The notes: generated from the sequence alone by a model not told the origin. A stretch of 64,000 nt of DNA from Bacteroidales bacterium (GCA_016929525.1 JAFGIP010000009.1:31886-95885), one strand, 5' to 3'. Numbered from the stretch's first letter, positions 3,131-29,302 are shown. Translations and numbers: made by a program.

Positions 3131-3213
3131 TTAATTATACTTATACTTTCTATATTATTTTAAGTTATATTTCTTACAGAAATGTTTAATACCAGTTTAT
3201 AACTACAAAATAA

Positions 3214-3227
3214 ATGATATAAATCAT
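3214..3227. promoter_or_regulatory. Putative Crp/Fnr-type operator, site 1
   Basis: ATGAT-ATAA-ATCAT is a perfect inverted repeat with 4-base spacing, the geometry of Crp/Fnr-family sites (FNR consensus TTGAT-N4-ATCAA). Its centre is about 99 bases upstream of the ATG at 3320. It shares ATGAkATAAATCATCA with site 2 at 5232-5249. A possible promoter (TTG at 3261, TAGTTTAG at 3285) lies between it and the gene. Confidence 0.5.
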
Positions 3228-3319
3228 CAGTAATAAGAAATCCATATCACCACTATATTCTTGACTAAAAGGGGATGTTTGTATTAGTTTAGTCCCTGAA
3301 AACTTAATCTCATTCATTT

Positions 3320-3538
3320 ATGGAAGCATTAGTACAAACTCCTGTCCTGAAACTTGAAAAAGATATGTGCTTTTCAAGCGACGAACTGCAAAACCTCGGT
3401 ATATTCCCTACAAATCTGCAGTGTTTCACTTATTATCATTATGTACTATATCAAAAGGGTAATAAGCGAATTATTCTTAAACCTTTACCCCATAATCTTT
3501 ATAAAGTAATTCGCACGTACGATTTTATGCCAGCCTAA
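3320..3538 (+). CDS. Small hypothetical protein (72 aa)
   Basis: This 72-residue protein has no signal peptide or membrane segment. It contains paired aromatic residues (CFTYYHYVLYQKG) and a conserved-looking KRIILKPLPHNLYKVI stretch. I recognise no domain. It appears to be a true gene because it has its own operator-like palindrome upstream and a clean rho-independent terminator 23 bases after the stop, so it forms a monocistronic unit at the edge of the signalling island. If the Crp/Fnr prediction is right it would be regulated together with the chemotaxis-like genes. Confidence 0.55.
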   Translation: MEALVQTPVLKLEKDMCFSSDELQNLGIFPTNLQCFTYYHYVLYQKGNKRIILKPLPHNLYKVIRTYDFMPA

Positions 3539-3560
3539 AAAGCTTTCATTTATAAAAGAA

Positions 3561-3592
3561 AATAATCCAAATTACTTGGGTTATTTTTTTTT
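3561..3592 (+). terminator. Rho-independent terminator
   Basis: AATAATCC pairs with GGGTTATT (one G-U) around a 9-base loop and continues into a run of T. It ends the 72-aa gene. It also shows that the TTG start proposed at 3576 for the next ORF lies inside a terminator hairpin, so the ATG at 3603 is the better start. Confidence 0.75.
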
Positions 3593-3602
3593 ATATTCAT
3601 GT

Positions 3603-4067
3603 ATGAAAAAATACCAAAGTAAAACAGACAAATACAAAAGACTTTATAATCAGCTATCCTTACTTTTAGACAAAAGTCCGTCAGTTCAGGCACAAATGGC
3701 AACTGTTAATGCAATTCTGTATTATAAAATTGATTATATATTTTGGATCGGATTTTATATTATAAATAATAAAATCTTAACTGTTGGTCCGTATCAGGGC
3801 CCCCTTGCCTGTCAGATTTTAGACTATCCGAGTGGTGCTTGCTGGTATAGTATATTGAATAAAAAAATAGTAAATATACCAGATGTAAGTAAATTTCCAG
3901 GTCATATACCCTGCGATTCAAGATCGAAATCGGAACTCGTTATTCCATTGCTTGATAATAGTAATAATATATATGCAGTATTGGATATTGACAGTGATAA
4001 ATTAAATGCATTTGATATTGTCGATGAAAAAGGAATATCAGAAATTGTTAAATTAATTAGAAGTTAA
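3603..4067 (+). CDS. msrC: Free methionine-(R)-sulfoxide reductase (GAF domain)
   Basis: This 154-aa single GAF-domain protein reduces free methionine-R-sulfoxide in the cytoplasm using a cysteine relay. The family block is clear: GPYQGPLAC, then a PSGAC segment, then PDVSKFPGHIPCDSRSKSE. It places Cys70, Cys80 and Cys104 where the E. coli enzyme has Cys84, Cys94 and Cys118. The ATG at 3603 was chosen because the ORF-track TTG lies inside the preceding terminator. It is convergent with the response regulator gene at 4071 with only three bases between stops. A role in oxidative repair is established for the family and is not specific to this locus. Confidence 0.85.
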   Translation: MKKYQSKTDKYKRLYNQLSLLLDKSPSVQAQMATVNAILYYKIDYIFWIGFYIINNKILTVGPYQGPLACQILDYPSGACWYSILNKKIVNIPDVSKFPGHIPCDSRSKSELVIPLLDNSNNIYAVLDIDSDKLNAFDIVDEKGISEIVKLIRS

Positions 4068-4070
4068 AGC

Positions 4071-4460
4071 CTATTCTGTTTGAACTTTGGAAATAAAACT
4101 ATCAAGCAACTCTGTTATCTTTTTAACTGAATAAGGTTTTGTAAGTAACTGACTAAAGCCAACATCTTTATAATCATTAAAAAAAATCTTCGGGTTATGG
4201 GCTGTAAGTGCAACTACTGGAATATCGCATTTAGGTCTATTTAATTTTTCACGAATATGTCTTGTAGCTTCCAGTCCATTCATAACAGGCATTTCTATAT
4301 CCATTAAAACAATATCAACATCATTTTTTAAAAGTGCCTCAACTGCTTCCTTCCCATTTTCAACAGTAATAAATTCGTGTCCTAAGTCTTCAATTATCTC
4401 AGATAAAAGTAACCGGTTTGTGAAAATATCATCTGCTATTACTACAGTAAGTTTTGACAT
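4071..4460 (-). CDS. Single-domain response regulator
   Basis: The 129-aa protein is a lone receiver domain. It has the acidic pair in VVIADDIFTN, the phospho-acceptor Asp in VLMDIEMPVMNG, a Thr in ALTAH and the Lys in LTKPYS, so all five receiver positions are intact. It has no output domain. The gene follows the Crp/Fnr gene by 18 bases on the same strand and is probably co-transcribed with it. The sequence resembles the receivers found in hybrid kinases (the D-M-E-M-P-V-M-N-G type), which suggests it takes phosphate from a hybrid or His-containing partner. Confidence 0.9.
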   Translation of the reverse strand: MSKLTVVIADDIFTNRLLLSEIIEDLGHEFITVENGKEAVEALLKNDVDIVLMDIEMPVMNGLEATRHIREKLNRPKCDIPVVALTAHNPKIFFNDYKDVGFSQLLTKPYSVKKITELLDSFISKVQTE

Positions 4461-4478
4461 ATAAACTCTATTTAAGTA

Positions 4479-5162
4479 TTACCCTAAGTCACTAAGCGTT
4501 TTAACAATCTTCATACTGTTGATTTTCACCATCGAACCCTCAAGATCAATTATTTTATCATGTTTAAATTCTGCCAGAGTTCTTATAAAACTTTCTTTAG
4601 TAGTACCTGCTAGTTCAGCCAACTCTCTTCGTGTAAAAGGAAATTCAAAGCTTTCGCTCCCATATATCGTTTCTGCGAAATATAGTATCACATCGGCAAT
4701 TCTTCCAGGGAGTTGCTTATGCGACTGACTCATTAGTCTTTCAAATATAAAGAGCCCGTCATTAGCAATTTTACCAATAATCTTGGAAGAGAACGCCCCA
4801 TTCGATTTCAGAATGCTATTAAAAACGTTGATATCAACAAAGCATATCTCCGAAGGTTGTATGGCAGAAACCGAATATTGATGAGTATCACCGCCGTAAA
4901 TCGATAATAATCCTAAGAAATCCTCCGGTAAAGCTACTTTCAGAATAATATATTTACCATTGCGGCCTTCTTTAAAGATTTTAACCAGCCCTGATTTGAT
5001 ATACATTATATGCGAAGTCCTTGTATTTTGTCTGAAAATAATCTCTTTCTTATTGAAATTAACGACATTACTGTTATCGATAACATCCTGAAGCTCATTC
5101 TCTTCTAATAAATTCCCGAAAGGAATAACAGAATTTTGTTCAATCATTGGCGAGTCATCCAT
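4479..5162 (-). CDS. Crp/Fnr-family transcriptional regulator
   Basis: The 227-aa protein has an N-terminal cyclic-nucleotide-binding-like beta-roll (about residues 20-140). A long dimerisation helix follows, then a winged-helix HTH at about 165-215. The recognition helix region TTKESFIRTL has Glu190 and Arg194, aligning with the DNA-contacting Glu181 and Arg185 of E. coli CRP, which fits recognition of TGA/TCA half-sites. There is only one cysteine, so it cannot hold an FNR-type iron-sulfur cluster, and a cAMP-binding RxS motif is not evident. The effector is unknown. A matching palindrome lies about 70-87 bases upstream of its start, suggesting autoregulation. Confidence 0.9.
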   Translation of the reverse strand: MDDSPMIEQNSVIPFGNLLEENELQDVIDNSNVVNFNKKEIIFRQNTRTSHIMYIKSGLVKIFKEGRNGKYIILKVALPEDFLGLLSIYGGDTHQYSVSAIQPSEICFVDINVFNSILKSNGAFSSKIIGKIANDGLFIFERLMSQSHKQLPGRIADVILYFAETIYGSESFEFPFTRRELAELAGTTKESFIRTLAEFKHDKIIDLEGSMVKINSMKIVKTLSDLG

Positions 5163-5231
5163 GAAAAATTTTTTTCTGTGTATTATAAATATAATAATAA
5201 AAGTTCATGATTTGAAAAGATTTCAAAAAAA

Positions 5232-5249
5232 TGATGAGATAAATCATCA
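5232..5249. promoter_or_regulatory. Putative Crp/Fnr-type operator, site 2 (divergent promoter region)
   Basis: TGATGA-GATAAA-TCATCA is a perfect 6-bp inverted repeat, and within it ATGAG-ATAA-ATCAT differs from site 1 by one base. It lies in the 222-base region between the divergent Crp/Fnr gene (start 5162) and the receiver gene (start 5385), so it could control both. Confidence 0.55.
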
Positions 5250-5384
5250 AATTTATTTTCCATTCAGAATTTACTTTTTAAAATGTTCTATTTGCCTTAT
5301 ATTTAAGTATAGAATAACCAAATTATTATATTGCCAATATTGCATATTCAGTTATTTTTATTAGCTTTAGATAAAACTATAGAA

Positions 5385-5780
5385 ATGGATGAAAACAGAG
5401 ACTACAAAATTTTAGTTGTTGATGATTCTACAACTAATGTTGTATTACTCGAAGCGATACTGGATGAGAAGGGATATCAGATTGAAACGGCTTTAAATGC
5501 AAAAGAAGCTTACGCTATAATGGAAAGAGAATCACCCGACCTTATTCTGTTAGATTTGTTAATGCCTAAAATTAGTGGATTTGATTTTCTGGAAGAAATA
5601 AGAAAAAATGAAAAAACAAAAAAAACCCCGGTAATAGTAGTTTCAGCACTTACAGATGAGGAAAATGTCGACAGGATAATGAACATGGGCGCAATCGATT
5701 TTGTGAAGAAACCCATTGATTTGCAATACCTGGTAGAAAGAGTTGAACTTGTCCTGCATAAAGCATACGATGCGCAATAA
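5385..5780 (+). CDS. Single-domain response regulator
   Basis: A 131-aa receiver domain starts at ATG 5385 (MDENRDYKILVVDD). The 18 extra N-terminal residues in the ORF track are not receiver sequence. The acidic pair (VVDDSTTN), phospho-Asp (LILLDLLMPKISG), Ser (VSAL) and Lys (VKKPID) are all present. No output domain follows. It is divergent from the Crp/Fnr gene across operator site 2 and stands before a second receiver gene about 110 bases downstream. The partner kinase is not obvious; the kinase-like proteins later in the island are candidates. Confidence 0.9.
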   Translation: MDENRDYKILVVDDSTTNVVLLEAILDEKGYQIETALNAKEAYAIMERESPDLILLDLLMPKISGFDFLEEIRKNEKTKKTPVIVVSALTDEENVDRIMNMGAIDFVKKPIDLQYLVERVELVLHKAYDAQ

Positions 5781-5889
5781 ATTTATTCTTAACTCCTTTT
5801 ATAGTCTTTTCATCACTATTTCCTGATTATTGGTAAACATATAACAACCTTATATATTATTCAAACGTTAGTGTAATTAAAGCGCAGAC

Positions 5890-6291
5890 ATGAAAAGATT
5901 ATTATTGGTTGAGGATAATCGGCTGGAAAGAAAAATGCTTTTACATCTGCTTAAGGAAAATTTATATTCTTTTGCCAATATAGATGTAACCAATGATGGA
6001 ATAAGCGCTATTGAATATTTATCCCGTTCACATTACGATCTCATCATAACGGATCTGATCATGCCAAAAGTTGATGGCATCGAGTTAATCAGAAATGTCA
6101 AGAAAAAATATCCCGCTAGTAAAATAATTGCCATTTCAGGCAGTAAACCTTATTATTTACTCATGGCAAAAAAGTTAGGTATCGAAGCTGTATTTACCAA
6201 ACCTATTGATCAAGATCGATTTCTAAAAAAAATCTTCGAACTGTTCAATATTAATTCAAAAAGTAAAATTATAAGCGTTAAACAAATATAA
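5890..6291 (+). CDS. Single-domain response regulator
   Basis: This 133-aa receiver carries LLLVEDNR at the acidic site, the phospho-Asp in IITDLIMPKVDG, Ser in AISGS and Lys in FTKPID. The LMAKKLG helix before the Lys is the usual position for partner contact. The last ~15 residues (INSKSKIISVKQI) form a short tail rather than a domain. It is the third stand-alone receiver within 2.2 kb and precedes the 561-aa coiled-coil gene by about 140 bases, with operator site 3 in between. Confidence 0.9.
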   Translation: MKRLLLVEDNRLERKMLLHLLKENLYSFANIDVTNDGISAIEYLSRSHYDLIITDLIMPKVDGIELIRNVKKKYPASKIIAISGSKPYYLLMAKKLGIEAVFTKPIDQDRFLKKIFELFNINSKSKIISVKQI

Positions 6292-6309
6292 TTCTGCACT
6301 GGTTTTAAT

Positions 6310-6323
6310 ATGACATATATCAT
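6310..6323. promoter_or_regulatory. Putative Crp/Fnr-type operator, site 3
   Basis: ATGAC-ATAT-ATCAT keeps the 4-base spacing and the ATCAT half-site of sites 1 and 2, with one mismatch in the left half. Its centre is about 118 bases upstream of the GTG at 6435, at the head of the chemotaxis-like gene run. Confidence 0.4.
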
Positions 6324-6434
6324 CTGAATCCGGTAATAACAATCAGTTTTAATTTTTCTTTTAATGCCAGCTATCTAATAATTTTATTAAGCCCAGAATA
6401 TTATTAAATGGTCTTAATTAAATAGCTGCATCCA

Positions 6435-8120
6435 GTGCCAGTTAATCTTGTTAAATCGGGAACTGTTCTTAAAAAGCCTGTAATGGTGTTTACAGACATT
6501 AATAGTCGCATTAATTCTTTAATAGATTGCTCAGCAAAAGATTTCAACACTCTAAATGATAACTTTCAGAAGTATCATAAAAAAATAAACAATCTGATAA
6601 TCCAGCTGAATTCATCCTGCCATAGCTTTATAGATATTCCTGAAAACGTAATGACTGATTTTGAAGCACAGTTAAATGAAATCAGTGATATCTTAAAAAA
6701 GAGCTATGAATACATAACTGGAATTGATTATTCTTTGCTTAAACTTCAAAAGAGAATTGAACACATTTATTTGAAAGTAAACAATTTGAAACAAAATGTT
6801 AGCACGCTTAAACTTCTAACTACAAATATTCAGTTTGAACCTACCTATCGTAAACTATACCAGGAAATTATTATTAATCTAAATGATTTATCATCACGCA
6901 TTCATGATCTTGAAACAAAATTTCAAAAAATAGATATGCGTATAAAACCTTGCTCTGAAATAACTGAACAAATTAAGTTCCATCAAATCCCTCTTATTTC
7001 GCAAGTATTAGATCGATTAAAAACTTTGGTGCAGGGATACAAACATAGTCAAACAGAAATTAAAAACTATGAATCGGCACATGAACAGCTCACAACAAGG
7101 CACACTTCCAGCAGTTCAGCAATAATACCCAATTTAAAATTTCAGGATATAATCAAACAAAATATTGAACATGTGAAGGTTGCTCACGAGTCTATACAGA
7201 AACAGCTTTCCAATTTTTCTGAGAATGGCGCCATTAAAGGAATATCAGAAGAGATTAATGTTGAAATGTTGTTTAAAATCAGAGACATTGGAGCCTTACA
7301 GGCAATTCAACTGGTACACGCCAATAGTGAATATCAAAAGACTGTAGAAAATATTACCGAAAAATTTGGGGAGCTCGATGATACTTTACAGAAGACCAAA
7401 AACTTATTGTATTCACTATCGCCATATAATAAATCAGATAACAAATTTAGTACGGATAGTCTTAACAGGAGTTCAGTAAAATTCAACCTTGAGATTAATA
7501 CCTTCCTCGATCTGAACTCGAATCTAAATTTAAATTACACCGATTTGTCAAGAAAAGTCCGGGGTCTGATTTATTCAAAACAAAAAAATGATCATTTTAT
7601 TAAGAGTATCAGTTTACTTTTTGAAAGAATTAAACCACTTATAAACAACCAGAAAATAAATAAGAACAGTTCCTACATTGATCAAATAATTTTTTCGAAT
7701 AAACCCAAGTTAAAAGTTATAGATAAGTCTGACGTCGAAACCTATTTCTCAATGCATAAAAGGCTTGAAAATATTGCCGGAAATTTCATAGAAACAGTGA
7801 CGCAAAAGATTTCTAAATCGACATCTGAATTTATCTTAGAACCAAGACCCTGGAACGAATCTGATTTCCATAACAGTGAATTTATACTTGATCGGTTAAA
7901 ATACTATAAAGTTTTTGATAAAGAAATCGAAGAGATAATTGAAAATTTAAACCAACTTTTAAAACAAATTGATATTGGAAATCTGGAATCTGAAATTAGT
8001 ACGTTGAGTCTAGAGATACTTAAGAAGCTCTATACGATGGAGAGCGAAAGAATAATTCATGAATTATATACAGGTAATAAGTATCACAATCATAACAATA
8101 ACAATGTCGTACTATTTTAA
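6435..8120 (+). CDS. Coiled-coil signalling protein with CheZ-like DxxxQ motif
   Basis: This 561-aa soluble protein is largely helical, with no membrane segment or signal peptide. Around residues 234-247 it reads LKFQDIIKQNIEHV. This resembles the catalytic helix of CheZ (FQDLTGQ), with Asp238 and Gln242 spaced like the Asp-Gln pair that dephosphorylates CheY-P. A second conserved-looking block, ALQAIQLVHANSEYQKTV, lies at about 287-304. Similar FQD...Q...EH segments also occur in chemoreceptor-like proteins, but the MCP hairpin tip is absent here. The start is GTG 6435 or ATG 6483. A CheY gene follows 34 bases downstream, fitting a role as its phosphatase or scaffold. Function is inferred. 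Confidence 0.7.
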   Translation: MPVNLVKSGTVLKKPVMVFTDINSRINSLIDCSAKDFNTLNDNFQKYHKKINNLIIQLNSSCHSFIDIPENVMTDFEAQLNEISDILKKSYEYITGIDYSLLKLQKRIEHIYLKVNNLKQNVSTLKLLTTNIQFEPTYRKLYQEIIINLNDLSSRIHDLETKFQKIDMRIKPCSEITEQIKFHQIPLISQVLDRLKTLVQGYKHSQTEIKNYESAHEQLTTRHTSSSSAIIPNLKFQDIIKQNIEHVKVAHESIQKQLSNFSENGAIKGISEEINVEMLFKIRDIGALQAIQLVHANSEYQKTVENITEKFGELDDTLQKTKNLLYSLSPYNKSDNKFSTDSLNRSSVKFNLEINTFLDLNSNLNLNYTDLSRKVRGLIYSKQKNDHFIKSISLLFERIKPLINNQKINKNSSYIDQIIFSNKPKLKVIDKSDVETYFSMHKRLENIAGNFIETVTQKISKSTSEFILEPRPWNESDFHNSEFILDRLKYYKVFDKEIEEIIENLNQLLKQIDIGNLESEISTLSLEILKKLYTMESERIIHELYTGNKYHNHNNNNVVLF

Positions 8121-8154: not shown

Positions 8155-8520
8155 ATGGGGAAAAAAATTCTATTCGTCGATGATTCAGAAAGCATTCGCG
8201 AAATAGTAAACTTCACTCTCGAAAATGAAGGTTACGATGTCTTACTCAGCAATAACGGGGAAAATGCGCTGAAACATCTTAATGGTCAGGATATTAATTT
8301 AATTATTACAGACCTGCACATGCCTGAAATGAATGGCATTGAATTAATAATAGAGATTCGGAAGATGGAAGATTATCAGCATACGCCAATACTTTTTCTA
8401 ACCACCGAATCCCAGACAGAAAAAAAGATGGAAGCTAAAAATGCCGGTGCAACCGGATGGATAGTTAAGCCGTTTGTACCTGCTAAGCTATTAGCTGCCA
8501 TTAATAAAGTGATAAGATAA
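8155..8520 (+). CDS. cheY: CheY-type chemotaxis response regulator
   Basis: A 121-aa receiver starts at ATG 8155 (MGKKILFVDD). The ORF-track start adds 32 residues overlapping the previous gene. All receiver residues are present: the VDDS acidic pair, Asp in IITDLHMPEMNG, Thr in FLTTES and Lys in IVKPF. The TTES and GATGWIVKPF segments are typical of chemotaxis CheY proteins rather than receivers of hybrid kinases. The gene sits between the CheZ-like coiled-coil gene and cheW. What it acts on (a flagellar switch, gliding or another output) cannot be seen in this window. Confidence 0.9.
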   Translation: MGKKILFVDDSESIREIVNFTLENEGYDVLLSNNGENALKHLNGQDINLIITDLHMPEMNGIELIIEIRKMEDYQHTPILFLTTESQTEKKMEAKNAGATGWIVKPFVPAKLLAAINKVIR

Positions 8521-8539
8521 TAACTTAAAAACGAGACGT

Positions 8540-9058
8540 ATGAGCACAAAAACAAAAAACCAGATCAACTCATTTCTGTCATTCAGGATAGGTAGTGAAG
8601 TGTTTGCTGCGAATGTACGGAACGTGTTGAATATTCTTGAGATGACCAAAATAACGAAAGTACCCAAAGCATCTTCTTATATGAAAGGTGTAATAAACTT
8701 ACGTGGTAATGTTCTTCCCATAATTGACAGTCGTCTAAAATTTGGTCTCGAAGAAACAGAATATACAACAAACACATGTATAATTGTTTTAGAACTGCAC
8801 ATAGGTAATGATCCGATAACAGTTGGCGCAATTGTAGATTCTGTAAATGAAGTCCTTGAAATAGATGATGACAACATACTTCCTCCTCCAGGCATTGGAA
8901 CCAATTTTCGTTCAGACTTTCTGAAAGGTATGGCTAAGAAGGACGAAGGTTTTATAATGTTACTGGATGTTGAAAAAGTATTTGCAACTGATGAAGTGGT
9001 TGACATACAGAATATCACTGAAGAAATAAGCAAACAGACAACAGCAGAACAGTCGTAA
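8540..9058 (+). CDS. cheW: Chemotaxis coupling protein CheW
   Basis: The 172-aa protein is a full CheW domain. It has FLSFRIGSEVFAANVRNVLNI at the N-terminus, the highly conserved YMKGVINLRGNVLPIIDSR segment, and the second-subdomain motifs VDSVNEVLEI and FLKGMAKKDEGFIMLLDVEK. A short acidic tail follows. CheW links chemoreceptors to CheA kinase. Neither a CheA nor a classical chemoreceptor is encoded in this window, so its partners must lie elsewhere or be unconventional. It follows cheY by 19 bases and precedes cheR by 38, consistent with an operon. Confidence 0.95.
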   Translation: MSTKTKNQINSFLSFRIGSEVFAANVRNVLNILEMTKITKVPKASSYMKGVINLRGNVLPIIDSRLKFGLEETEYTTNTCIIVLELHIGNDPITVGAIVDSVNEVLEIDDDNILPPPGIGTNFRSDFLKGMAKKDEGFIMLLDVEKVFATDEVVDIQNITEEISKQTTAEQS

Positions 9059-9096
9059 TAATATTATAATATGGTATACTGAAGACATGTGAATTA

Positions 9097-9954
9097 ATGA
9101 ATAATCAGGGAAATCCAATTTCATATTTTCAGACTAAATTAAGTTCAAAAGATTTCGAAAAACTTAGCAGATTTATCATGTCGGAGTATGGTATCAAAAT
9201 GCCTCCCGAAAATAAAATTATGCTCCAGAGTCGTCTTCAAAAAAGACTTAAAGCTTTAAACATAAGCACATTTAATGAGTATGTCGACTATGTGTTTTCT
9301 CCTTTAGGGCAGAGTGAGGAAGTTATCCACATGATGGATGTTGTAAGTACTAATAAAACAGACTTTTTCCGCGAACCGGTTCATTTTGATTTCTTACTAA
9401 CAGATGCTCTCCCCGAGATAATCAATATTAAAAATATCAGAAATTTAAAAGTATGGTCAGCGGGTTGTTCATCTGGTGAAGAACCTTATACATTGGCAAT
9501 TGTATTGTCTGAGTTTAAAGAACATAATCCTGGTATTGATTTTTCGATAGATGCAACTGATATATCTACCCGTATGTTAACAGTTGCAGCTAACGCTGTA
9601 TATCAGGAAGCAAAAACTGCTGATTTACCTATGACAATAAAACATAAGTATTTTCTACGCAGCAAAAATCGCGATGAGAAAAAAGTAAGAGTAAAAAGTG
9701 AATTAAGATCGAAGGTGAAATTTTACAGGAAAAACTTATTATACGTTCCCTATTGCAATAATCCTGAATTTGATATTATCTTCTGCAGAAATGTACTTAT
9801 TTACTTCGACAGAAATAACCAGTACAGTATTCTTCAAAAACTCTGCATGCATATAAAATCCGGCGGATATCTTTTTCTGGGACATTCTGAGTCTATCACC
9901 GGTTTTGAATTGCCATTACAACATATAAAACCAACCATCTTTCAAAAACTTTAA
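9097..9954 (+). CDS. cheR: Chemotaxis protein methyltransferase CheR
   Basis: The 285-aa enzyme transfers methyl groups from S-adenosylmethionine to chemoreceptor glutamates. It has the N-terminal helical CheR domain (residues ~15-75) and a substrate segment, MMDVVSTNKTDFFREPVHF. The SAM-binding motif VWSAGCSSGEEPYTLAI and the C-terminal FDIIFCRNVLIYFD and GGYLFLGHSES motifs are also present. All key segments are intact and length is normal. This contrasts with its antagonist cheB and with cheD downstream, which are both damaged. Its methylation target is not visible in the window. Confidence 0.95.
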   Translation: MNNQGNPISYFQTKLSSKDFEKLSRFIMSEYGIKMPPENKIMLQSRLQKRLKALNISTFNEYVDYVFSPLGQSEEVIHMMDVVSTNKTDFFREPVHFDFLLTDALPEIINIKNIRNLKVWSAGCSSGEEPYTLAIVLSEFKEHNPGIDFSIDATDISTRMLTVAANAVYQEAKTADLPMTIKHKYFLRSKNRDEKKVRVKSELRSKVKFYRKNLLYVPYCNNPEFDIIFCRNVLIYFDRNNQYSILQKLCMHIKSGGYLFLGHSESITGFELPLQHIKPTIFQKL

Positions 9955-9963
9955 AAAAGTGAT

Positions 9964-10860
9964 ATGGAATTAAATAATATATCAGATAAGGAAATAATCC
10001 TGGAGTTGAAAAACCGGCTGCAGGAAAAAGCAATTTGTGAACAACAGGTTAAGGATCTGAATATTTCATTAAAAAAACTTAACCGTAAGCTAAAAGAATC
10101 AGAATCTATGAAAAGTCATTTCATTTCAAATATTAGAAATGAGATAATAAATCCCTTTACATCGATTCTGGCGATCGCTGAAAACATTCTTGACGTAGAA
10201 AAAGAAAACTGGAAAAAGGTTATACATATGGTTTCGTTAATTCATACGGAAGTATTTAATCTTGATTTCCAGCTGAGAAATATTTTTGCCGCTGCGGAAC
10301 TTGAAGCTGGAGAAAACGAGCCTGACATAACACTAGTAAATATTGATAAAACAATCCAACACGTTATCGATACCTTTAAATACGAAGCCAGAAGAAAACA
10401 CCTTAAAATTGAATATGTTTCAGCTAATAAAAATTCAAATACGAAAATGTATTTCAAGTCAGATGCTGAGAAAATCCAGATAATAATCAGCAACCTTATA
10501 AGCAACGCTATTAAATTCAGTTATAATGAAGGAATCATTCTGATTAAGGTTACAAAGCAAGAAAATAACTTAAGATTAACAGTAAAAGACGAAGGTCAGG
10601 GAATTTCAAAAACCAACGAGCAGATTATTTTTGACCGTTTTAAAAGAATAGATACCGGTATTAATTCGCTGAACAGAGGACACGGACTGGGATTATCTAT
10701 CATTAAAGCAATGATAGACTCACTGGATGGTAAAATTGAATTTTCAAGTCGGCTTGGTAAAGGCGCCACTTTCACAATCCAGCTGTATGAATCAGAAAAG
10801 GAAACATCAGGAATATCAAACGATGCCGACGAATTGTTCTTCAGAGAAGAAAAGTTTTAA
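9964..10860 (+). CDS. Histidine-kinase-like protein with Asn replacing the H-box His
   Basis: The 298-aa cytoplasmic protein has an N-terminal coiled coil (1-50), a HisKA-like dimerisation segment and a HATPase domain (~150-275). The H-box reads FISNIRNEIINPF, with Asn59 (codon AAT at 10138) where the phospho-accepting His should be. His52, exactly one heptad earlier, is the only nearby alternative. The ATP site looks intact: N-box ISNLISNAIKFS, G1 DEGQGIS, the RF..I F-box and G2 GHGLGLSI. It is therefore likely unable to autophosphorylate in the normal way but able to bind ATP, and may act in trans on a partner or as a phosphatase. It lies 9 bases after cheR. Confidence 0.9.
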   Translation: MELNNISDKEIILELKNRLQEKAICEQQVKDLNISLKKLNRKLKESESMKSHFISNIRNEIINPFTSILAIAENILDVEKENWKKVIHMVSLIHTEVFNLDFQLRNIFAAAELEAGENEPDITLVNIDKTIQHVIDTFKYEARRKHLKIEYVSANKNSNTKMYFKSDAEKIQIIISNLISNAIKFSYNEGIILIKVTKQENNLRLTVKDEGQGISKTNEQIIFDRFKRIDTGINSLNRGHGLGLSIIKAMIDSLDGKIEFSSRLGKGATFTIQLYESEKETSGISNDADELFFREEKF

Positions 10861-10874
10861 TAAACAACATTAAC

Positions 10875-11942
<1,068 letters not shown>

Positions 11943-28792: not shown

Positions 28793-29302
28793 ATGAGAAG
28801 GTTAATTACATTGATTTTATTTGTGTCAGTTTGTTTGGGAGCAAAAGCACAGACAGGTATACCAAGGGCGCAGGCTATGTTTATCTATAATTTTTCACGC
28901 CTGATAGAATGGCCGGCAAATTATAAAACAGGACCGTTTGTAATTGGTGTTGTGGGGTCTACACCTACACTAGCAGAAATTGAAACTTATGCTTTAGGCA
29001 AAAATGTTGGCAGTCAGCCCATAGCTATTAAAAAATTTAATTCCCCTTCAGAAATATCTACATGCCATATTTTATTTGTACCCTTTAGTAAAACAAAACT
29101 TTTATCTGAAATAATTCCGGCTGTTCAGGATAAGAGCACTTTGATAATTACCGAAAAGAATGGTGCAATCGACGAAGGAGCATCAATTAATTTTGTAATA
29201 ATAGGTGACAAACTTAAGTTTGAAATAAAACCTTCCAATCTTACCAGGGTTAATATTAAAGTAAGTTCTAAACTTAGTGAAATGGCCTTTAAGGTTTACT
29301 AA
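28793..29302 (+). CDS. YfiR-family (DUF4154) periplasmic protein
   Basis: The 169-aa protein has a signal peptide (cleavage near AKAQ). It then has the YfiR/DUF4154 fold: AMFIYNFSRLIEWPANYKTGPFVIGVVG, a central FVPFSKTK strand and the C-terminal NFVIIGDKLKFEIKPSN. In Pseudomonas YfiR is a periplasmic repressor of the YfiN diguanylate cyclase, but in Bacteroidota it usually stands alone, as here with no GGDEF gene nearby. The cysteine pair that regulates P. aeruginosa YfiR is absent. Its stop abuts the convergent aroE stop. Confidence 0.85.
   Translation: MRRLITLILFVSVCLGAKAQTGIPRAQAMFIYNFSRLIEWPANYKTGPFVIGVVGSTPTLAEIETYALGKNVGSQPIAIKKFNSPSEISTCHILFVPFSKTKLLSEIIPAVQDKSTLIITEKNGAIDEGASINFVIIGDKLKFEIKPSNLTRVNIKVSSKLSEMAFKVY

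Follow-up and report, generated by a model that had tools for sequence, protein, structure and literature searches.

A conserved palindromic operator and the predicted, signalling-rich regulon of a Crp/Fnr-family regulator in uncultured Bacteroidales

Crp/Fnr proteins are common in Bacteroidota, and few of them have a defined operator or regulon. The closest solved relative, by sequence, of the regulator considered here is CrpPg of Porphyromonas gingivalis (2GAU; E 1.4e-18), a Bacteroidales Crp/Fnr protein reported to bind its own promoter and no cyclic nucleotides, and to affect biofilm formation; fimbrial and redox genes are its reported targets (PMC12040651). On the signalling side, the SiaABC partner-switch pathway controls biofilm formation in Pseudomonas aeruginosa (PMC7647112). 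Our literature search returned no earlier description of the operator or regulon presented below, a weak negative, as most subscription papers lay outside the search. The present analysis provides a sharp, testable operator, a cross-genome target list and a signalling theme for one Crp/Fnr protein.

The regulator locus and its three palindromes

The window (the whole stretch of 64,000 nucleotides analysed) comes from a 4.06 Mb draft genome that is 97.7% complete, and the relatives are uncultured Bacteroidales represented by metagenome-assembled genomes. The 227-aa regulator, encoded on the minus strand at 4479..5162, has an N-terminal cNMP-binding-type domain (PF00027, E 1.9e-17) and a C-terminal Crp-type helix-turn-helix (PF13545, E 1.8e-12). 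Downstream of it on the same strand lies RR_A (4071..4460, minus; PF00072, 6e-23), a stand-alone receiver that adjoins crp in most ortholog loci. Two more stand-alone receivers are divergent from crp on the plus strand: RR_B (5385..5780; PF00072, 1.2e-29), with counterparts of 53-88% identity in the corresponding position in most relatives, and, after it, RR_C (5890..6291; PF00072), conserved in closer relatives.

An earlier note on this DNA had reported three Crp/Fnr-type palindromes, A (3214-3227), B (5234-5247) and C (6310-6323), and both their sequences and their coordinates were confirmed. The pattern ATGANATAWATCAT has four exact matches in the genome, three of them A, B and C, a count that is partly circular since the pattern was read off these very sites; for the same reason the probability of about 5e-6 that three of four random sites fall within 3.1 kb is a flattering figure. 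Matches with up to two mismatches are not enriched in the window (22 vs. 15.9 expected), so that the exact copies carry the case there. As the pattern was taken from the window sites, independent evidence was sought in footprinting and in a weight matrix from relatives. The matrix, trained solely on orthologous sites of other genomes with the window genome left out, ranks A (20.3), B (20.3) and C (10.6) as the top three positions of the window, followed by an intragenic one at 9.5. Markov-1 shuffles of the window reach a mean best score of 11.2, which makes A and B exceptional and leaves C alone near chance. The refined operator consensus is GRTGATWTAWATCAYC, frequently doubled at 23 bp.

Operator A (TAAATGATATAAATCATCAG; 3211..3230, no strand assigned, as for all operators and their copies) is centred 99 bp before the ATG of orf72, and a position 94-99 bp before this gene is kept in all 11 genomes where orf72 adjoins crp. 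A degenerate second copy (3234..3253), 23 bp downstream of A, retains the right half ATCACC, and this half-site is conserved across an alignment of 11 orf72 upstream regions. The element at 3261..3292 on the plus strand, with a TTG at 3261 and the -7-like TAGTTTAG at 3285-3292, is probably the core promoter of orf72; the -7-like element lies 63-64 bp from the centre of operator A in 11/11 genomes. Sigma-70 consensus promoters turned out to be equal in number to those in shuffled sequence and were not used, and the sole match of an Rfam search is a tRNA upstream of site A. The orf72 gene itself (3320..3538, plus) encodes a conserved 72-aa protein that is 65-85% identical in 10 relatives, every one of which has the regulator and site A. 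The protein has no Pfam or NCBIfam match, and a fold search with its model (pLDDT 82) gave no significant match; naming it was dropped on these grounds. It is followed by a 154-aa ORF (3603..4067, plus), a conserved neighbour of crp in relatives, which has no Pfam match and, by eye only, resembles a free-methionine sulfoxide reductase of the GAF type.

Operator B (ATGATGAGATAAATCATCAA; 5231..5250) occupies the divergent gap between crp and RR_B. The crp promoter has a -7-like element (TATATTTA; 5186..5193, minus), and its distance to the operator centre is 47-48 bp in all but one of the 12 family genomes with the site.

Operator C (AATATGACATATATCATCTG; 6307..6326), the weakest of the three, precedes the che run and has a degenerate second copy (CCGGTAATAACAATCAGTTT; 6330..6349) 23 bp downstream. 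Operators stand before the che run in eight relatives (nine genomes with this one), mostly as pairs 23 bp apart, and the copy at 6330..6349 matches the position of these pairs; in one relative, G008, the operator scores only 9.8. Site C is supported mainly by its conserved position, its score being near chance. Its predicted target, the first gene of the run (6435..8120, plus), encodes a 561-aa protein with no Pfam match above cut-off; relatives have homologs of 23-34% identity in the corresponding position. A CheY-like receiver, CheW, CheR and a histidine kinase follow (8155..10860, plus; PF00072, PF01584, PF01739, PF02518), and then an interrupted cheD region and a truncated cheB (10861..11942, plus). 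Set against the intact frames of the relative G005, cheD shows stops and changes of frame, and the 198-aa cheB is without some 175 residues, including the active-site serine region with the GASTGG stretch of G005; the match to the CheB_methylest profile does not begin until position 57. No protein of the window genome was found to have an MCP signalling domain, while most relatives searched have 6-17. The weakness of site C fits a che pathway in decay, although an assembly error is possible.

A purely chemotaxis regulon was considered and rejected: crp and sites A and B persist in G001, G009 and G012, whose clusters are missing most che genes, and the absence of MCP-domain proteins from the window genome also contradicts it. 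As a separate observation, CheA (G000:C64, L318:3880-6351) and CheW are encoded in the window genome (G000) despite the MCP absence.

Conservation of the operators and the candidate binder

Many relatives retain the gene order orf72 - 154-aa ORF - RR_A - crp - RR_B - RR_C - che run, although some related genomes have no che genes in the cluster, and operators occur in relatives at the same three places, namely upstream of orf72, between crp and the divergent receiver, and ahead of the che run. Orthologs of the regulator in related genomes are 57-82% identical to it, and its own promoter carries a palindromic operator of the TGA-N6-TCA type (site B and its counterparts), to which binding is predicted. 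Among 20 crp loci on which the matrix had not been trained, 15 have such a self-site (score of at least 14 within 400 bp upstream); these loci are related to one another and hence not fully independent. Only 0.2% of shuffled upstream regions reach this score, and one other such site occurs in the rest (236 kb) of the 20 loci. The self-site is still seen at crp orthologs as distant as 42-48% identity. Second copies at 23 bp are frequent upstream of orf72, the che run and an unlinked gene for a 68-aa protein; in the window they are degenerate.

The pattern has exceptions. The self-site is absent despite an unchanged recognition helix in part of the genus g4, in G085 and G028, and at L166 and L175. 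In part of g4 the helix is kept, but the self-site and the operator of the unlinked 68-aa gene are both gone; this double loss could go back to one event within a clade and is thus weak as independent evidence. The g4 genomes retain the operator pattern at other places. G007 and G010 have strong sites, yet no ortholog of the regulator was found in them; in G007, where a conserved neighbour gene is also missing, this may reflect an assembly gap or a true loss. With part of g4 as the exception, operators upstream of orthologous targets (orf72, crp, the che run and the 68-aa gene) are conserved in the relatives that keep the regulator; the absence of such conservation would, according to the earlier note, have spoken against its proposal. 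Chance clustering is ruled out for A and B by the footprinting and the shuffles, and palindromes A, B and C are real and kept by evolution.

All 14 orthologs checked have K, E, I and R at the recognition-helix positions equivalent to CRP 180, 181, 184 and 185. This invariance bears out the proposal that the helix has the Glu and Arg expected for TGA/TCA half-sites, and the absence of a cysteine cluster was also correctly read: the regulator has one cysteine and some orthologs have none. Since the self-site recurs at orthologs and the K/E/I/R set is invariant, the link between the sites and the encoded Crp/Fnr protein is strong. Moreover, the self-site follows the ortholog group of the regulator. 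Among the Crp/Fnr paralogs, one in the window genome is preceded by the self-site TGTGATGTGTATCACA, and in a Cys-rich family from G005 and G009 the self-site is TATGATATATATCATA or close to it; the self-site flanks of two other Crp/Fnr families, TGTGAT and TATGAT, are unlike the GR of the regulator's group. Judging from the sequences, other Crp/Fnr proteins could possibly cross-bind, as the cores overlap despite the different flanks. The Cys-rich paralog (L102, L125) adjoins a divergent gene resembling FAD/NAD(P)-dependent oxidoreductases, the enzyme name being given by eye.

Operators elsewhere in the genome

The genome-wide set was obtained by degenerate pattern searches of the window genome and subsequent matrix scoring of sampled loci. 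Besides A and B, it comprises 20 intergenic sites scoring at least 15, in 18 regions elsewhere in the genome; this is a working count that leans upward, as 20 regions had been chosen for their likeness to the consensus. Position inside or outside genes was no criterion in choosing regions. Among the sampled sites scoring at least 15, 22 of 23 are intergenic vs. 35 of 151 scoring below 10 (Fisher p ~1e-11), a comparison in which the matrix itself favours intergenic DNA somewhat, since the promoter sites used to train it have AT-rich cores. Motif density, the other point on which the earlier note said that its proposal could fail, is not at background level, A and B also being far above shuffles. 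The note's remark that no comparably good copy was seen in other intergenic regions holds within the window and fails genome-wide, where strong intergenic sites occur elsewhere. The note's proposal of a local regulon of the encoded Crp/Fnr protein stands as regards conserved operators and a strong link to the regulator, and falls as regards its local extent.

Eight of the 18 regions front signalling genes, and about 10 front genes that are not obviously signalling. The unlinked signalling targets predicted in this way comprise a STAS-like-CheY-CheA operon (STAS assigned by eye, Pfam giving no match), a tandem pair of SiaC-like genes, two YfiR-like genes, and genes for a TPR-SpoIIE protein, for a receiver and for a PAS histidine kinase. 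Also among them is an acyltransferase whose matches to exosort_acyl and to autoinducer synthases are weak. The remaining regions front genes for small uncharacterised or secreted proteins, for a lipoprotein, for an ABC-ATPase protein or for a sugar transporter, or else no clear gene. Operators of the relatives front the same kinds of genes, that is, those for the 68-aa protein, SiaC, SpoIIE, MCPs, a PAS kinase and a STAS-like-CheA operon; the unlinked STAS-like-CheY-CheA operon, the SiaC pair and the SpoIIE, PAS-kinase and 68-aa genes have an operator both here and in relatives. Unlinked che genes and SiaC-like proteins are in this way tied to one regulator. We conclude that the operators around crp are the most closely packed portion of a regulon that spans the genome and abounds in signalling genes. 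The Crp/Fnr switch probably runs a signalling programme that extends beyond its neighbourhood.

Several further observations concern individual genes. The 68-aa protein (YNIKSLISSIYECQKKIIINRRFIRELESEG; L213, G000:C9:60932-61135), with orthologs L214-L232, is encoded in 22 of 23 family genomes, and its gene has a double operator upstream in most family genomes outside genus g4. A 66-aa protein (L101:2264-2464; homologs at L120 and L129) follows an operator in three genomes. Together with orf72, these small proteins gain a regulatory context. Operators at L123 (G007) and L343 (window genome) precede an acyltransferase of exosortase-associated/autoinducer-synthase kinship. The window also holds a 169-aa ORF (28793-29302) that is YfiR/DUF4154-like by eye; such proteins stand behind operators elsewhere in the genome.

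Predicted mechanism, alternatives and comparison with known systems

We consider it likely, on the sequence data, that the encoded Crp/Fnr protein is an autoregulated factor acting on GRTGATWTAWATCAYC, which would control its neighbourhood and about 18 promoters elsewhere, probably in the main by activation from upstream. A dimer of the protein would recognise the palindrome, the Glu and Arg of the recognition helix reading TGA and the Lys (Arg180 in E. coli CRP) plausibly reading the purine before it. It would control its own operon crp-RR_A and the divergent receivers, orf72 and the gene that follows it, the che run and some 18 further promoters, nearly half of them for signalling genes. The fixed spacing from operator to -7-like element (47-48 bp at crp, 63-64 bp at orf72) suggests that activation occurs most likely from upstream, in a class I-like manner, and a second dimer 23 bp away may often assist. 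If transcription begins about 12 bp beyond the first base of the -7-like element, the operator centres would lie near -60 at crp and near -76 at orf72. The regulator may be governed by some signal or by its own abundance; sensing of the cAMP or Fe-S type was rejected because the defining residues are absent from the protein. What the data show is the conservation of the operators, of their spacing and of the helix residues, together with the intergenic set across the genome; that the regulator is the binder, that it activates and that a signal or its abundance controls it are steps that we infer. The output might, at a guess, be a switch in lifestyle signalling. A bolder proposal, which we regard as unlikely, is that an effector-less Crp/Fnr subfamily tied to its two flanking stand-alone receivers could be the master switch of Che, partner-switch (SiaC, SpoIIE, STAS-like), YfiR and autoinducer-like signalling in uncultured Bacteroidales, receiver phosphorylation replacing the ligand.

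Other accounts of the sites have to be weighed against this mechanism. That they are chance AT-rich palindromes is barely credible: the lack of enrichment of weak matches in the window and the near-chance score of site C would agree with it, but the cross-genome conservation and the shuffle tests for A and B do not. Control of the gene neighbourhood only is very unlikely. The strong sites in 18 intergenic regions elsewhere, together with the recurrence in relatives of operators at the unlinked 68-aa, SiaC, CheA and PAS-kinase genes, outweigh the facts that three of the four exact pattern copies lie here and that no other position of the window exceeds 9.5.

Another Crp/Fnr paralog with an overlapping core might share the operators or be their main reader, in which case the target list would mix two regulators. 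Paralog self-sites do have the same TGAT-N4-ATCA core, G007 and G010 have sites without an ortholog, and g4 keeps the pattern at other places. However, the flanks differ (GR here vs. TA and TG in two paralog families), the self-site tracks the ortholog group and the G007 paralogs have no site in their own promoters, so we find this account quite improbable. It is possible, although we doubt it, that the sites are real and serve mainly as repressor operators, or for mutual exclusion at the divergent crp/RR_B promoters. Site B does lie between divergent genes and some unlinked operators are close to the start codon, for instance about 43 bp before a YfiR gene; at crp and orf72, in contrast, the operators are well upstream of the -7-like element and at a fixed distance from it, which activation fits better. 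Our preferred reading remains the autoregulated, probably activating factor with a genome-wide reach.

In comparison with CrpPg, the recognition helix is different (TVSNAIRTL against TKESFIRTL), so another operator is to be expected. The regulator shares with E. coli CRP the cNMP-binding fold, the Crp helix-turn-helix, the equivalents of Glu181 and Arg185 and the TGA-N6-TCA core. The CRP residues in contact with cAMP, E72, R82, S83, T127 and S128, are replaced by L, Q, Y, I and F, and the orthologs resemble the regulator at these positions. Arg180 of CRP is Lys in the regulator, and the operator flank is GR rather than the TG of CRP. With an NCBIfam CRP score of 45.7 vs. a cut-off of 266, the protein is not CRP proper. 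Nor is it FNR proper (44.7 vs. 228 for NCBIfam Fnr). It resembles E. coli FNR and FNR-type proteins in the TGAT-N4-ATCA core and in the Glu and Arg of the recognition helix, and differs from them in having no cysteine cluster, in the Ile at the G184/S212 position and in the flank, GR vs. TT. As for SiaABC, the likeness to that pathway consists in a tandem SiaC-like pair and a SpoIIE-type protein behind predicted operators in the window genome. The SiaC match is below the NCBIfam equivalog cut-off, and the SiaC-like and SpoIIE-type genes do not form one operon here.
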